From contig NC_007775.1 in assembly GCF_000013205.1 (NCBI RefSeq), positions 1,980,501-2,044,500 on the forward strand: 64,000 nucleotides of DNA, read 5' to 3'. Origin of the DNA: Synechococcus sp. JA-3-3Ab (lineage in GTDB: Bacteria > Cyanobacteriota > Cyanobacteriia > Thermostichales > Thermostichaceae). The notes beneath the pieces were generated by a model. The model was not told the DNA's origin. It made no database searches and worked only from the letters and a program-made list of their open reading frames with translations. The translations under genes and the position numbers were made by a program. Positions 31,235 to 39,105 of this stretch are shown in pieces; the first letter of the stretch is position 1; each line of letters starts with the position of its first letter.

Positions 31235-31891
31235 CTAGTCGAAGCTGAGACGGCCCCGATAGCGTCCTATGAGGATCAGGCCGTTGACGGGATCCGCACA
31301 ATCGACCACAAAAGACGGGAAGCGAGGGTTGTCGCTGATAACTTTTACTCGGGATCCTGACAGGCGTTGCAGCCGTTTGACCCACAGCTCGCCATCCCTC
31401 TGAAAGACGTAGATGCCCTCACCCCCCAGCTCTTTTTGCCGTTCGACAAAGATCCAGTCGCCATCTTCCAAGGTGGGAGACATGCTGTCCCCTTGCACCC
31501 GAATCAAACTGAGCCCATCCGGGTTCCCCTTCAGATGGGCCCGTAGCCAGTTACGCTCAAAAGCTAGCACCGACTCGATGGACTCTTCCCGCACCAGCGC
31601 CCCCGCCCCTGCCGAGGCGACCACATCCACCAGAGGCACGTATACATACTCCGTTTTGGCGTCGCCAGCCTCCAGCCGCGGGGATCCCTCCCCCGTAATC
31701 AGCCAACTGAGACTCACCCCCCCCACCTGGGCAATTTTCACGGCCTTGTCGATGCCGGGCACGGATCCCTTGAGGTAACTGCGCAAGGCTGTATCGCTAA
31801 TGCCGGCCCGCCGCCCAAACGCATAAATGGCCTCATCGCCGATCACCTGTCGCAAACGGTCGGCAAAGGAGGAATCAGAGGAGGTGGACAT
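31235..31891 (-). CDS. CI/LexA-like transcriptional repressor with S24 peptidase domain
   Basis: The 218-residue protein has an N-terminal HTH (about 20-65: AFGRRAGISDTALRSYLKGS) and a C-terminal S24 domain with the Ser136 nucleophile in GDSMSPTLEDGDW and the general-base Lys172 in ELWVKRLQ. A possible Ala-Gly cleavage site lies in VVASAGAGAL (91-100). This is the architecture of phage CI-type repressors that self-cleave with RecA, but no phage genes surround it. Two inverted repeats lie just upstream and suggest autorepression. The ATG at 31891 begins the domain; an upstream TTG overlaps one operator. It is divergent from a small membrane-protein gene and the ndh operon. Confidence 0.85.
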   Translation of the reverse strand: MSTSSDSSFADRLRQVIGDEAIYAFGRRAGISDTALRSYLKGSVPGIDKAVKIAQVGGVSLSWLITGEGSPRLEAGDAKTEYVYVPLVDVVASAGAGALVREESIESVLAFERNWLRAHLKGNPDGLSLIRVQGDSMSPTLEDGDWIFVERQKELGGEGIYVFQRDGELWVKRLQRLSGSRVKVISDNPRFPSFVVDCADPVNGLILIGRYRGRLSFD

Positions 31892-31907
31892 CGGCTTAAC
31901 GCTACGG

Positions 31908-31919
31908 GTTGTGTACAAC
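31908..31919. promoter_or_regulatory. Putative operator 1 (GTTGT-GT-ACAAC)
   Basis: This inverted repeat with a 2-base centre lies 16 bases upstream of the repressor ATG, between the start codon and a putative -10 (TAGAAA on the minus strand). Its half-site GTTG(T/A)C resembles that of the second repeat, and the two centres are 32 bases apart. Confidence 0.5.
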
Positions 31920-32407: not shown

Positions 32408-32770
32408 GTGTTTGTCTTATCCGGCTACGAGTATTTGCTGGTCTTTCTGATCGTCTGCGCTCTGCTGCCGGTCTTGGCTCTGGGAGCTTCTGCGCTCTTG
32501 GCCCCAAAGCGGCGGGGATCCCTGCGCCGCAGCACCTATGAGTCGGGGATGGAGCCGTTTGGCCAGGCCTGGATCCAGTTCAACATCCGCTACTACATGT
32601 TCGCCCTGGTCTTCGTGATCTTCGACGTGGAGACCGTGTTCCTCTATCCCTGGGCGGTGGCCTTTCATCGCTTGGGACTGCTGGCCTTTGTGGAGGCCCT
32701 GATTTTCATCGCCATCCTTGTGGTGGGCCTTGTGTACGCTTGGAGAAAAGGAGCGCTGGAATGGTCATGA
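32408..32770 (+). CDS. ndhC: NAD(P)H-quinone oxidoreductase subunit 3
   Basis: NdhC is a membrane-arm subunit of cyanobacterial NDH-1, which carries cyclic electron flow, respiration and CO2 uptake in thylakoids. The 120 residues have three transmembrane helices and the family loop [24 protein letters not shown] (SGMEP.G core) before [20 protein letters not shown]. The stop codon overlaps the ndhK start region by ten bases, the conserved ndhC-K-J arrangement. Confidence 0.96.
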
Positions 32771-33501
32771 CCTCTCAGGAGCCGGAAGTCTTGTTTCCGG
32801 CGTCTGCCCCGCAAGTTACCACAGACCTCTCGAACAACGTCGTTCTCACCACGGTTAACGACCTGTACAACTGGGCGAAGATGTCCAGCCTCTGGCCGCT
32901 CCTCTACGGCACTGCCTGCTGCTTCATCGAGTTTGCAGCCATGCTGGGCTCCCGCTTCGATTTCGACCGCTTTGGCCTGTTGCCCCGTTCTTCGCCGCGC
33001 ACGGCTGATTTGATCATCACGGCGGGCACGGTCACTATGAAAATGGCCCCAGCGTTGGTCAAGCTCTACCAACAAATGGCTGAGCCGAAGTACGTGATCG
33101 CCATGGGGGCCTGTACCATTAGCGGCGGCATGTTCAGCTCCGATTCCTACACGGCGGTGCGAGGGGTGGACAAGCTGATCCCTGTGGACGTGTACATTCC
33201 CGGCTGCCCGCCGCGTCCGGAGGCGATCATGGATGCTATTGTCAAGCTGCGCAAGAAGATCGCCGCCGAAGACATGCGGGAGCGGGGCCGCCTGCAACAA
33301 ACCCACCGGTACTACACGGTCAAGCACAACCTCAAGCCGGTGCCGGAGATCATCACCGGCAAGTATCTGGAGAGCGAGACCCGCCAAGCTCCTCCACCGG
33401 AACTGGCGGCGGCTATTGGCCTGCCGGTGCCTCCGGCCTTGCAGACTGCCGACTTCAAGCAGGCGGAACAGCAGCTCAAAGCTTTGCGGGGAGGGATGTG
33501 A
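32761..33501 (+). CDS. ndhK: NAD(P)H-quinone oxidoreductase subunit K (N2 cluster subunit)
   Basis: NdhK carries the terminal [4Fe-4S] cluster N2 that passes electrons to plastoquinone. The cluster cysteines are visible in [19 protein letters not shown] and IPGCPPRPE. The protein is 246 residues from the ATG at 32761. That ATG has GGAG seven bases upstream and overlaps ndhC; a second ATG two codons later gives the common ATGA coupling. It ends one base before the ndhJ start. Confidence 0.96.
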
Positions 33502-33502
33502 G

Positions 33503-34048
33503 ATGACAGAGGACAAAGCCCAGCAAAAGCCGTCCTCGACAGCCGAGCCGACAGAGCCGTTGGCGACGCTGGAACGGGGGCCGGTTTCCCAGTTCCTCGC
33601 CGATAACGGCTTTGACCATCAGTACCTGGGCAGAGATGCCGCCGGGGTGGAGCTGCTGGAGGTGGAGCGGGATTTTCTCTTGCCTGTGTGTACTGCCCTC
33701 TATGCCTACGGCTTCAATTACCTGGAGTGCCAGTGCGGCTACGACCTGGGGGCAGGGCAACCCCTGGTCAGCCTCTATCACCTGATCAAACTGGCGGACG
33801 GGGCAGATCGGCCGCAGGAGGTGCGGGTTCAGGTGAAGCTGCCCCGCCAAGATCCGCGGGTGCCCTCGGTGTACTGGATCTGGAAGTCGGCGGACTGGCA
33901 GGAGCGGGAGACCTATGACATGTACGGCATCATCTTTGAGGGACACCCCAACTTGAAGCGGATCTTGATGCCGGAAGACTGGATTGGGTGGCCGCTGCGC
34001 AAGGACTATATCACGCCTGACTTCTATGAGTTGCAGGACGCTTACTAG
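33503..34048 (+). CDS. ndhJ: NAD(P)H-quinone oxidoreductase subunit J
   Basis: NdhJ is the 30-kDa-type (NuoC) hydrophilic subunit of NDH-1. The 181 residues carry an acidic disordered N-terminus, the core [17 protein letters not shown] and the signature [38 protein letters not shown]. The ATG at 33503 follows the ndhK stop by one base, so the genes are coupled. The frame is open further upstream but those residues overlap ndhK. Confidence 0.96.
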
Positions 34049-34095
34049 GGGGGATCCCTTAACCGGCTGAGCAGCGTTCGCAGGACGTGAGAGAA

Positions 34096-34269
34096 ATGTG
34101 GCCTTTTTTGCTCTTGGCAATCTACGCAGGGGGAGTTTGGTACTCAGCCCGCAAGGCGGATCGCATCTACTCAGGCTCTGGAAAGTGGGCGGTGTCGGCC
34201 CTCTGGCCACTGCTGCTCTTGACCAACCGCCAGTTTCGCCAAAATTGGCGTCGTCCCTTGAACAAGTGA
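34096..34269 (+). CDS. Small membrane protein in the ndh operon
   Basis: The 57 residues MWPFLLLAIYAGGVWYSARK... contain one hydrophobic helix, a basic loop and a second shorter helix (SALWPLLLLTNRQF). I do not recognise the family. It fits tightly between ndhJ and the downstream methyltransferase, whose GTG start overlaps its stop as GTGA. That overlap supports it as a real translated gene. A GTG three codons earlier is an alternative start. Confidence 0.6.
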   Translation: MWPFLLLAIYAGGVWYSARKADRIYSGSGKWAVSALWPLLLLTNRQFRQNWRRPLNK

Positions 34270-35507
34270 GTCTATCCCCATTGGTAAGCCCTTCTAGGCA
34301 AGACTTAGGCTTGGGCAATCCGGATTTGCCCTTGTCGCCCTCGCAGGCCGACCGGAGGTTGCCAGAGCTGATCGGCAGCCGCATTCGCGCCCGAGGACCC
34401 GTGACCTTTGCCCAGTTCATGGAGTGGGCCCTCTACGAGCCAGGTCTGGGTTACTACGAGCGGGAGCATCTCCCCCTCGGCTGGGACTATCGCACCTCCC
34501 CTCACTTGGCGGCGGATTTTGCCCAACTGTTGGCTGAGCAGATCTTCCAGTTCTGGCACATTTTGGGATCCCCTCCCCATTTTGCGGTGATTGAGATGGG
34601 GGCGGGCAGCGGGCGCCTGGCCGAAGATTGGCTGGCCTATGTGTGCTCCAATTGGCCCGACTTCTGGCAAGCCCTGGAGTACGGGATCCTCGAGCGCTCT
34701 GCTTTTTTGCGGCGGCTACAGCAGGAGCGCTTGGCCGGCTATGGCGAGAAGGTGCGCTGGCTAGAGTGGGACGAGATCCCAGATGGTTCGGTAACCGGCT
34801 GTTTTTTTTCCAACGAGCTGGTGGACGCCTTCCCAGTCCATCGGGTGCAGGTGCAGGCGGGGGCCTTGCGAGAAATCTACGTGGATTGGGCGGAGGGGGA
34901 GGGCTTCCGAGAAGTGTTAGGGGATCTCTCTACGCCCGCGCTGGAAGCGTACTTTGCCCGCCTGGGGATCCCGATTGCCACCTATCCCTCCGGCTACCAA
35001 ACGGAGGTCAACCTCAAGGCCCTAGAGTGGCTCCAGCTTCTGGCCCGCAAGCTGCGGCGGGGCTACGTGCTCACCCTTGACTACGGCCACACCGCCCAGC
35101 GCTACTACAGCCCCCAGCGCTTCCAGGGCACGCTCCTGGCCTACCGCCAACACGGCACCTACGCGGATCCCTATGTCTGGGTGGGATCCCAAGATCTCAC
35201 TGCCCACGTGGACTTTACCACCTTGCAGCAGGTGGGGGAGTCTCTGGGGCTCAAGTGCCTGGGCTTCACCCAGCAGAGCTGCTTTTTGGTGAACCTGGGA
35301 TTGGCGGAAAGGCTGGCCGCCCTCGGCCAAGTTGGCGACGAGGGGGGGGATCTGGGCCAGGTGTTGCAACGGCGACATGCCCTTCACGCTCTGCTGGATC
35401 CGCTGGGGTTGGGGAGCTTTGGGGTGTTGCTGCAGGCCAAGGGCTTGAGCGAGGCGGAAGCGGCCCAGCCGCTGCAGGGCTTTGTCGAGCCGGAGCTACA
35501 CTTATGA
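34266..35507 (+). CDS. NDUFAF7-like SAM-dependent methyltransferase (COG1565/DUF185)
   Basis: The 413-residue protein has the NDUFAF7/MidA pattern: FAQFMEWALYEPGLGYYER, the SAM-binding loop AVIEMGAGSGRLAEDWL, GILERSAFLRRLQ, CFFSNELVDAFPVHRVQ and LTLDYGHTAQRYYSP. In mitochondria NDUFAF7 methylates an arginine of the complex I subunit NDUFS2 during assembly; the NDH-1 homologue of NDUFS2 is NdhH. Here the gene sits directly downstream of ndhCKJ, which makes a matching role in NDH-1 assembly a natural inference. The start was set at a GTG overlapping the previous stop; homology begins about residue 25. Its own stop overlaps the next ATG (ATGA). Confidence 0.85.
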   Translation: MSLSPLVSPSRQDLGLGNPDLPLSPSQADRRLPELIGSRIRARGPVTFAQFMEWALYEPGLGYYEREHLPLGWDYRTSPHLAADFAQLLAEQIFQFWHILGSPPHFAVIEMGAGSGRLAEDWLAYVCSNWPDFWQALEYGILERSAFLRRLQQERLAGYGEKVRWLEWDEIPDGSVTGCFFSNELVDAFPVHRVQVQAGALREIYVDWAEGEGFREVLGDLSTPALEAYFARLGIPIATYPSGYQTEVNLKALEWLQLLARKLRRGYVLTLDYGHTAQRYYSPQRFQGTLLAYRQHGTYADPYVWVGSQDLTAHVDFTTLQQVGESLGLKCLGFTQQSCFLVNLGLAERLAALGQVGDEGGDLGQVLQRRHALHALLDPLGLGSFGVLLQAKGLSEAEAAQPLQGFVEPELHL

Positions 35508-35764
35508 ACCTCACCTTTTGGGTGGGCCTATCGGCTGCTGCTCTGACCACTGCCAGTTTCTTCCCGCAAGCCTGGAAAACTTGGCATAGCCAAAAGGCGG
35601 ACGATTTTTCTTGGAGCTACCTGCTGCTGTTTGGGGCAGGGATCCTGATGTGGGATCTGTACGGCCTGTTGCGCCAAGATGCGGTCATCCTGCTTGCCAA
35701 CACGGTAACCCTGGCGCTGGTGGGAGTGATTATCCTAACCAAACTGAGAACCTCGGCTCGCTAG
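35504..35764 (+). CDS. SemiSWEET (PQ-loop) sugar transporter-like protein
   Basis: The 86 residues fold as one three-helix bundle with the PQ motif in ASFFPQAWKTWHSQKADDFS, then WSYLLLFGAGILMWDLYG and a last helix ANTVTLALVGVIILTKL. This is the size and pattern of bacterial SemiSWEETs, which dimerise to transport sugars. The ATG overlaps the methyltransferase stop by four bases, so it is the last gene of the ndh transcription unit. The substrate is not predictable. Confidence 0.88.
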   Translation: MNLTFWVGLSAAALTTASFFPQAWKTWHSQKADDFSWSYLLLFGAGILMWDLYGLLRQDAVILLANTVTLALVGVIILTKLRTSAR

Positions 35765-37352: not shown

Positions 37353-38633
37353 TTACGCTGAACACTGCTGAGCATTACTGCTCAGCGGTGAAGCGATAGC
37401 ATTCTGTCCGTTTCCGTTGTCACTACGCGATGCTGACGCGACCGCGCTACTCGGACGGAGTCCAAACAGAAAGGCGGTATCCCGCAAAGCCCTGAGCATA
37501 ACACCCAGAGCGCCTTGCCAATCTCGTGGTAGCCTATGGTTGCACTTTGGGCATCTAAACACCTTTGCGCCACCCAACTTGGTGTGGATGTGCCCGCACT
37601 TGGTACAGGTTTTGCTGGTGTACGCTTCCGATACTTCCACGACAACCACGTTTTTCTTCTTGGCTTGAAACTTCAGGAGCTGCTTGAACCGGTAGTGCGC
37701 CCAGGTGAGCATCGCCCTTGCTGTCTTGCTACCAAACTTCCTCCCTGCCTTGGCAACCATCTTGGCTGACTCGAAAGTGGGGAGGAATATCAATCGGTAG
37801 TTATCCGTCAAGAACGCTGCTACCTTACGATGGCACTCGTCCACCAAGTTCCTGATTCTCTCCCGCAGACGAAACGCCGCTTGCCGCATTCGCCTACGCT
37901 TGGGTCTCGGTGCTTTACTCAGCCTAGACTGCAGATCGTCTAGGTGGTAGCACAGCCGAACGATCCTGCCAAAGTCTCCCTTGGCGATATCTACAAAGCC
38001 CGCCCCATCAAACCCTGTAAGGAAGCTTCTTACTCCAGGATCAAGTGCGATCACCCCCTTTGCTAACGAACACTGCTCGTTCACGGGCTCAGGGAAGATG
38101 GCATACCATCTGTCTTTCACCCGCATTAGCTCAGTTCCACGTGCCCATTCTCTGGGCATCTCCTCGGATGCACGGAACGTCAAGCCTCGGGTGAGTTTCG
38201 GATACCACGTCCCATTGCGAAAGTTGCCGGCGTTGAATTGCAGCGTATGCGACCTGTCCCGCACACTGCGAAACCTCGCGTCTTTGCTTCGGCGAAACGC
38301 CAGCCACGCCTCGACGACCGCGTTCTGCTTGATGTGGCAAGGGACGTCCTTCACCCACCCGGGCAGGTCGGAGCGCAGGATGATGTCCCGCAGCTTTCTG
38401 GCCGTTTTTGGGGCACCATGCTGACGCTGATAGGCAATCGCTTGGTTGTAGCAGTACCGGCACGCCGCTTGCCACCGCTTCCAAACTTTAGCCAGCGCTG
38501 GCTCCGGATAAATCCGTATCTTTCTCGATTGCAGCCCGATATTTTCTGAGTCCGTAGAGCCGACTGCTGAAGCAGTGCAGGATGGTGAGGATATCCTCAA
38601 CCAGTTCCTGTTGGGGAGAAAGGTGATCGTCAT
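37353..38633 (-). CDS. tnpB: IS607 TnpB, RNA-guided nuclease
   Basis: The TnpB is about 426 residues from an ATG inside tnpA. Homology begins near IRIYPEPALAKVWKRWQ and continues through the RuvC motifs IALDPGVRSFLTGF (Asp), LIFLPTFESAKM (Glu) and LPRDWQGALGVML (Asp), with a zinc ribbon CTKCGHIHTK...FRCPKC between. All catalytic residues are present. The frame stays open a further 127 codons upstream, but that part is out-of-frame overlap with tnpA. The start is uncertain because few start codons occur near the tnpA stop. The 3' end probably overlaps the omega-RNA scaffold that runs to the element's right end. Confidence 0.87.
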   Translation of the reverse strand: MTITFLPNRNWLRISSPSCTASAVGSTDSENIGLQSRKIRIYPEPALAKVWKRWQAACRYCYNQAIAYQRQHGAPKTARKLRDIILRSDLPGWVKDVPCHIKQNAVVEAWLAFRRSKDARFRSVRDRSHTLQFNAGNFRNGTWYPKLTRGLTFRASEEMPREWARGTELMRVKDRWYAIFPEPVNEQCSLAKGVIALDPGVRSFLTGFDGAGFVDIAKGDFGRIVRLCYHLDDLQSRLSKAPRPKRRRMRQAAFRLRERIRNLVDECHRKVAAFLTDNYRLIFLPTFESAKMVAKAGRKFGSKTARAMLTWAHYRFKQLLKFQAKKKNVVVVEVSEAYTSKTCTKCGHIHTKLGGAKVFRCPKCNHRLPRDWQGALGVMLRALRDTAFLFGLRPSSAVASASRSDNGNGQNAIASPLSSNAQQCSA

Positions 38634-39105
38634 CGAGAACCAAGATTTCGCATCCGTATTGACGGCAGTACCACTCAACGAACTCAAATCCAAACCGGCA
38701 GAGTCGATCCCGGTGAGCGACCACAATTGTTCCGACATCTCCCGCACGGACTCGTTCCAATAAGGCAAGGAACTTTGGTCTTTTGAAGTTGAGACCGCCG
38801 CCAACCTCTCCGACCACTTCGGCTCCAGGATAGAGGTCAACCAGTCTTGCAATCTGTCTCTCCAAGTCTGGTTTCTGCCCTCGACTGCTGACTCGGGCGT
38901 ACAAAACGACTCGTTTGTCCTTCTTGGGCGCTCTGTTCGCGTCAGCGGGCCGGAGGCCAATGTAGCTGTCGAGGTCATACCTTCTCGCCCTACCGGATGG
39001 TGTACGTGTTGCATTGATCCAGCCCTTCTGTTCCCATCGCCTCAAGGTGTGGAGACACACCCCAAAATAATCCGCCGCTTCTCTCGGTTTTACATACCTA
39101 GCCAT
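38488..39105 (-). CDS. tnpA: IS607 TnpA, serine-recombinase transposase
   Basis: The 205 residues combine a MerR-like N-terminal HTH (YVKPREAADYFGVCLHTLRRW, about 4-45) with a compact serine-recombinase domain (VVLYARVSSRGQKPDLERQI with nucleophile Ser73, then VVAHRDRLCRFGFEFVEWYC). This small domain order is diagnostic of IS607 transposases, which form a synaptic tetramer and insert at GG dinucleotides. It overlaps tnpB at its 3' end. Confidence 0.93.
   Translation of the reverse strand: MARYVKPREAADYFGVCLHTLRRWEQKGWINATRTPSGRARRYDLDSYIGLRPADANRAPKKDKRVVLYARVSSRGQKPDLERQIARLVDLYPGAEVVGEVGGGLNFKRPKFLALLERVRAGDVGTIVVAHRDRLCRFGFEFVEWYCRQYGCEILVLDDDHLSPQQELVEDILTILHCFSSRLYGLRKYRAAIEKDTDLSGASAG

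Follow-up and report, generated by a model that had tools for sequence, protein, structure and literature searches.

The enzyme family considered here and the arginine mark that it introduces are already known from mitochondria, and the mark is also known from Paracoccus. The idea that the role of this mark is ancestral, which the earlier note on this DNA had put forward for complex I assembly, is not new, and a 2018 Cell Reports paper on MidA reportedly argues for a proteobacterial origin. That P. denitrificans carries the mark is stated in a passage of PMC3750175, and the 2018 MidA paper is used in the review PMC9006661, as a portion of that review indicates. Human NDUFAF7 symmetrically dimethylates Arg85 of NDUFS2, a modification needed for complex I assembly, and the loss of NDUFAF7 from human cells impairs this assembly, as described in passages of PMC3829151. 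In the 49-kDa subunit of P. denitrificans complex I, symmetric dimethylation has been found at Arg65, while the equivalent arginine in E. coli complex I is unmodified, with the HRG motif present (excerpts of PMC3750175). The equivalent arginine in Yarrowia (R121) lies 3.7 A from cluster N2, according to a section of PMC8042128, and a role of the arginine mark on the N2 potential is discussed in parts of PMC8042128 and PMC8357420.

Within the open-access literature, which leaves subscription papers and preprints outside its scope, we found no report of NdhH methylation in a cyanobacterium. Seemingly new are the linkage of the methyltransferase gene to ndhH itself, its pairing with the HRG copy in genomes with two ndhH genes, and the drift of the target site in genomes that are devoid of the enzyme.

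The methyltransferase gene and its ndhC–ndhK–ndhJ neighbourhood

The window, which is the whole 64,000-nucleotide stretch of DNA analysed here, contains at 34266–35507 on the plus strand a gene of 413 codons, read from a GTG whose status as the start codon is uncertain, and its product is the cyanobacterial orthologue of NDUFAF7/MidA, the family and the fold of the S-adenosylmethionine-dependent methyltransferase both being established here. The product matches PF02636 (Methyltransf_28) over 249 of 249 profile positions (1–249) with an E-value of 1.6e-74 and a score of 250.9 bits against a curated cut-off of 23.3, and it is encoded by the single PF02636 gene of the whole 2,932,766-bp genome; a search with NCBIfam profiles returned no match for it. 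By sequence, the closest solved structure is 4f3n (E 3.8e-42), the other solved relatives being 1zkd and 5ztz, and the phmmer match to MidA (5ztz) extends over residues 40–367 with an E-value of 8.6e-21. The AlphaFold2 model (pLDDT 91.1, pTM 0.89), in which residues 1–18 form the low-confidence part, superimposes in the VIA structure comparison on 4g67 with a Z of 43.9 and on MidA (5zu0) with a Z of 38.2 and an rmsd of 2.8 over 358 aligned residues, and the next unrelated structure follows at a Z of 16.2. The full-length domain and the likeness of the model to MidA bear out the homology to NDUFAF7 that the earlier note had proposed. Three motifs, E-x-G-x-G-x-G, N-E-x-x-D-A-x-P-V-H, and D-Y-G, are invariant across 30 bacterial and archaeal homologues (Glu110, Gly112, Gly114, Gly116, Asn183, Glu184, Asp187, Ala188, Pro190, His192, Asp272, Tyr273, and Gly274), and these residues are mostly matched in the alignment with MidA; their catalytic roles are presumed.

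The gene is the fifth of six plus-strand genes in a row. The run starts with ndhC (32408–32770; NDH-1 subunit 3, NuoA; PF00507, E 2.6e-39), which is followed by ndhK (32740–33501; NuoB; PF01058, E 9.1e-29; NF005012) and ndhJ (33503–34048; NuoC; PF00329, E 3.7e-41; NF009141). The ndhK reading frame is listed from a TTG at 32740, while the orthologue in a genome of the same genus (G177) is listed from the corresponding ATG, and translation of the window ndhK probably begins at the ATG at 32761. Between ndhJ and the methyltransferase gene lies a small hydrophobic ORF of 57–60 residues (34087–34269, with an ATG at 34096), which gave no match in a Pfam profile search and belongs to no known family; tblastn recovers it at 79–95% identity in five other genomes of the genus, and did not find it at two loci of the same family outside the genus set (G394 and G402). 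The row ends with a gene for a SemiSWEET-type small transporter (35504–35764; NF037968, 82.0 bits with a cut-off of 80), which directly follows the methyltransferase gene in five of six genomes of the genus. A scan for promoters and terminators revealed nothing above shuffled sequences. Two minus-strand features flank the run, both read by eye from translations: a LexA/CI-type repressor-like protein upstream of ndhC (31235–31918), and two adjoining ORFs (37353–39105) whose products resemble a transposon-borne TnpB-type protein and a serine-recombinase-type transposase that begins in a MerR-like manner.

The earlier note had described the methyltransferase gene as translationally coupled to its neighbours through GTGA and ATGA overlaps. 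Both overlaps are present in the window, the former at 34266–34269 between the small ORF and the methyltransferase gene and the latter at 35504–35507 between the methyltransferase and SemiSWEET-type genes. The GTGA overlap is missing from three related loci: the small ORF of G177 stops at TAA, so that its methyltransferase must start later; the frame in G332 that is opened by the GTG equivalent to the window start closes after two codons; and 39 nt separate the two genes at locus L223, where the ATGA overlap is kept. As the GTGA overlap is not conserved, it was rejected as proof of coupling, translational coupling at this junction is unsupported, and the start codon of the window gene is uncertain; the order of the genes is unaffected.

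The survey of gene neighbourhoods that the earlier note had proposed was carried out, and it extends the linkage to ndhCKJ beyond the window strain. The order ndhK–ndhJ–small ORF–methyltransferase gene recurs in every one of the six examined members of the genus (G000, G177, G332, G359, G376, and G385), and this conservation indicates that the order is more than chance. A genome of the same family (G402) has ndhK–ndhJ–methyltransferase with the small ORF absent, and the short locus of another (G394), which reaches about 1.5 kb or less to each side, shows no NDH gene. The placement of the gene within an ndhC–ndhK–ndhJ unit therefore holds for 6/6 genomes of the genus and for G402, by which a linkage specific to this strain is ruled out. 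In the window genome, ndhH itself lies 1.26 Mb away from the methyltransferase gene and ndhCKJ.

Linkage to ndhH and descent of the enzyme in cyanobacteria

In other cyanobacteria, the gene is found beside ndhH itself. In a single sample of 339 genomes from the phylum, the methyltransferase and NdhH could both be placed by coordinates in 126 genomes of the class, and ndhH lies within 5 kb of the methyltransferase gene in 21 of them, distributed over six families (f3, f4, f7, f11, f15, and f28), with ndhH upstream and on the same strand in every one of the 21 pairs. Random placement would be expected to give about 0.28 such pairs, a figure to be read with the genomes being related and not independent. 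The remaining 105 genomes have the methyltransferase gene beyond 5 kb of ndhH or on another contig, the two genes being on different contigs in 48 of the 126. A second set of 52 genomes added six linked cases, three with ndhH upstream and three, all in family f48, with the methyltransferase gene upstream.

The arrangements differ in detail. The ORFs of ndhH and the methyltransferase are only 8 bp apart in G233, a gene for a GAF-domain protein lies between them in G042 (L066, 1583–2122), and G041 has the methyltransferase at similar spacing to ndhJ and to ndhH. In G131 the gene is upstream of ndhC–K–J with one RibD_C gene between, and in the non-photosynthetic G021 it is the first gene of a run, 80 bp before nuoA–B–C–D–E. 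A public genome collection supplied 80 named loci, which we ourselves divided by record title into 46 cyanobacterial and 34 others; an NDH gene is near the methyltransferase in 10 of the 46 (ndhH upstream in nine, ndhCKJ in one), and none of the 34 loci from other phyla has an ndh or nuo gene within reach. Several arrangements in cyanobacteria and none among the 34 loci elsewhere mark the linkage as a feature of this phylum. As a separate observation, a cyanobacterial genome on a single contig of 3.8 Mb (G051) has NdhJ and lacks both NdhH and the methyltransferase; the two genes are adjacent in G233, which belongs to the same genus, so that a single deletion could explain the loss of both.

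The enzyme also keeps company with its predicted substrate. PF02636 is found in 169 of the 339 genomes of the phylum, a count that includes weak matches in families f32 and f38, and all 169 hold PF00346, the NdhH/NuoD family, as well; none of the 97 genomes of the phylum without PF00346 carries PF02636. In other phyla, a PF00346 protein accompanies the methyltransferase in 33 of 34 genomes. A quick tree of 49 rows, with four named rows left out, places the cyanobacterial methyltransferases in one clade (27 rows, SH-aLRT 98), in which the family of the window falls into one of the two first branches. The single clade and the early position of this family fit the presence of the gene in the ancestor of the class with later loss, and the cyanobacterial methyltransferase would thus have been inherited in place.

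The predicted target arginine in genomes with and without the enzyme

The NdhH protein of the window genome reads GYLHRGMEKIAENRT and has Arg-Gly at the position of NDUFS2 Arg85. A draw of 388 genomes of the class comprises 331 with the methyltransferase and 57 without; 35 of the latter were identified from gaps in the numbering, and G051 and G243 from the phylum draw, the total matching the tally of 57. The genomes without the enzyme belong mainly to families f18 and f26, both of which lack it throughout. Of the 57, 54 have a recognisable NdhH, and neither NdhH nor the methyltransferase is present in G051, G371, and the 62% complete G396. The site is readable in 53 (a partial NdhH in G474 was left out), and reads HRS in 40, HRA in two, and HRG in 11. 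Six of these 11 are among the 38 genomes of f26, and five belong to families that otherwise have the gene; four of the five are draft assemblies of 77–97% completeness, so that the absence of the methyltransferase may be an assembly gap.

Where the methyltransferase is present, the exact HRG pattern was found in 77/80 and 78/80 genomes. Among the five carriers missing it, G135 reads HRGVEK, the HRG of G346 is found in the second of its copies, no NdhH could be detected in G345, and G384 and G442 are unmatched, such that 157 of 160 carriers hold an HRG copy of NdhH. Outside the class, six relatives without the methyltransferase keep HRG unchanged. Plastid NdhH (PDB 7eu3, 7wfg, and 9grx) resembles the NdhH type of enzyme-free genomes around the site (IIQYLPYVTRWDYLATMF) and yet has HRG.

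On a tree of NdhH (125 rows; L079 and L097 were left out and read by eye), at least five changes have occurred at the site, and the HRS and HRA copies fall mostly within one NdhH type. A paired test along this tree offers three to four independent pairs, one or two of them in the predicted direction and none against it (sign test, p 0.5). By counts, the association between site and enzyme is strong, but few events underlie it, and the motif association alone was accordingly rejected as statistically decisive.

Genomes with two ndhH copies lend additional weight, of which the tree test takes no account. In all four such genomes of family f48 (G346, G355, G362, and G379), the methyltransferase gene lies just upstream, on the same strand, of the copy that reads HRG, at a distance of 36 bp in G346, while the other copy reads HRS or HRA at the NDUFS2-Arg85 site and has no adjoining methyltransferase gene. 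In the same family, G388 is without the methyltransferase and has only an HRS copy, and G412 has a single HRG ndhH with the methyltransferase gene on another contig. A second, divergent ndhH with an FIQFLTY context also occurs in family f55 (L166 and L167, from G405 and G397), is not beside the methyltransferase gene, and still reads HRG. In other phyla, all 29 methyltransferase-bearing genomes with a readable site hold at least one HRG NuoD, and eight of them carry a variant NuoD in addition, with HTG (five acidobacterial genomes and G616) or HRA (G611 and G628).

Proposed function and comparison with known systems

Homology, linkage, and conservation of the site make it most likely that the window enzyme dimethylates the arginine of NdhH. 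In the mechanism that we propose, the enzyme would use S-adenosylmethionine to dimethylate, symmetrically, the arginine in the LHRGMEK motif of NdhH, the equivalent of Arg85 in human NDUFS2 and Arg65 in Paracoccus Nqo4; this arginine lies next to cluster N2, at the contact between NdhH and NdhK, and its dimethylation would help the NdhH–NdhK module to form. The reaction, the target residue, the symmetric form, and the assembly role are each something that we infer rather than something displayed by the genome data, and we consider it quite probable that the enzyme, as an orthologue of NDUFAF7/MidA, acts in this manner. Families f18 and f26 have NDH-1 without the enzyme, and the mark may serve assembly, the N2 potential, or both. 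The arginine may be methylated for the tuning of cluster N2 or of quinone reduction, with the mark dispensable for assembly in cyanobacteria, a variant of the proposed mechanism with which its confidence overlaps, and one that we hold tentatively, the balance leaning somewhat against it. It gains from these two whole families, from the assembly of E. coli complex I with an unmodified arginine (a passage of PMC3750175), and from the discussion of an effect on the N2 potential in parts of PMC8042128 and PMC8357420; the impaired complex I assembly upon loss of human NDUFAF7, as given in an excerpt of PMC3829151, speaks for a role in assembly instead.

The position of the gene beside ndhCKJ rather than ndhH in the genus of the window, together with the clustering of HRS and HRA copies by NdhH type, would also be expected if the enzyme acted on some other protein, within NDH-1 (NdhK or NdhJ, for instance) or outside it, and the drift of the NdhH motif were a by-product of NdhH type. 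We regard this as unlikely, since human NDUFAF7 acts on the equivalent arginine of NDUFS2 (a passage of PMC3829151), the gene in f48 adjoins the HRG copy and not the HRS or HRA copy, and the acidobacterial, nitrospiral, and planctomycete carriers with a variant NuoD always have a second NuoD with HRG. The choice of NdhH as the likely substrate, made in the earlier note, is strengthened by the adjacency to ndhH elsewhere, the pairing with the HRG copy, and the drift of Arg-Gly where the gene is lacking. Coincidence plus shared ancestry might likewise account for neighbourhood and motif, with no particular connection between the enzyme and cyanobacterial NDH-1, and the three to four independent pairs (p 0.5), the 105 of 126 genomes with unlinked genes, and the lack of linked loci among the 34 from other phyla agree with such an origin; five separate arrangements with ndh or nuo genes, the same order and strand in 21/21 pairs within 5 kb, and the presence of PF00346 in 169/169 carriers render it very improbable.

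A wider reading, to which we give about an even chance for its three parts taken jointly, is that arginine methylation of the NDUFAF7 type beside N2 would be an ancient mark of complex I maturation in general, extending beyond the Proteobacteria and mitochondria to many bacterial phyla and some archaea; that cyanobacterial NDH-1 would be split into one kind that is methylated, reads HRG and has its ndhH accompanied by the methyltransferase gene, and an enzyme-free kind that drifts to Arg-Ser or Arg-Ala; and that some early-branching genomes would keep both kinds together. If so, photosynthetic NDH-1 carries an unrecognised modification beside its terminal iron–sulphur cluster, and the mark would have to be included when N2 of the cyanobacterial enzyme is modelled structurally or energetically, and perhaps also for the enzyme of plastids, in whose NdhH HRG is retained. 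Ready controls for the role of the mark in assembly, in the N2 potential, or in both are provided by the lineages that have naturally lost the gene and by the genomes with two ndhH copies.

Among known systems, human NDUFAF7 and Dictyostelium MidA (5ztz, 5zu0, and 5zzw) belong to the same Pfam family as the window enzyme, and the window genome likewise holds the substrate subunit with its Arg-Gly site in the same organism as the enzyme. The cyanobacterial gene differs from them in being linked to ndh genes and in its predicted substrate, NdhH of NDH-1. The closest solved structures in both sequence and fold are COG1565/DUF185 proteins, from Burkholderia thailandensis (4f3n and 4g67) and Rhodopseudomonas palustris (1zkd), whose entry titles call them uncharacterised or likely methyltransferases. 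The dimethylated Arg65 of P. denitrificans, described in a passage of PMC3750175, occupies in a bacterial complex I the same site as the predicted target in NdhH, and, unlike in cyanobacteria, the 34 non-cyanobacterial methyltransferase loci have no nuo gene nearby.
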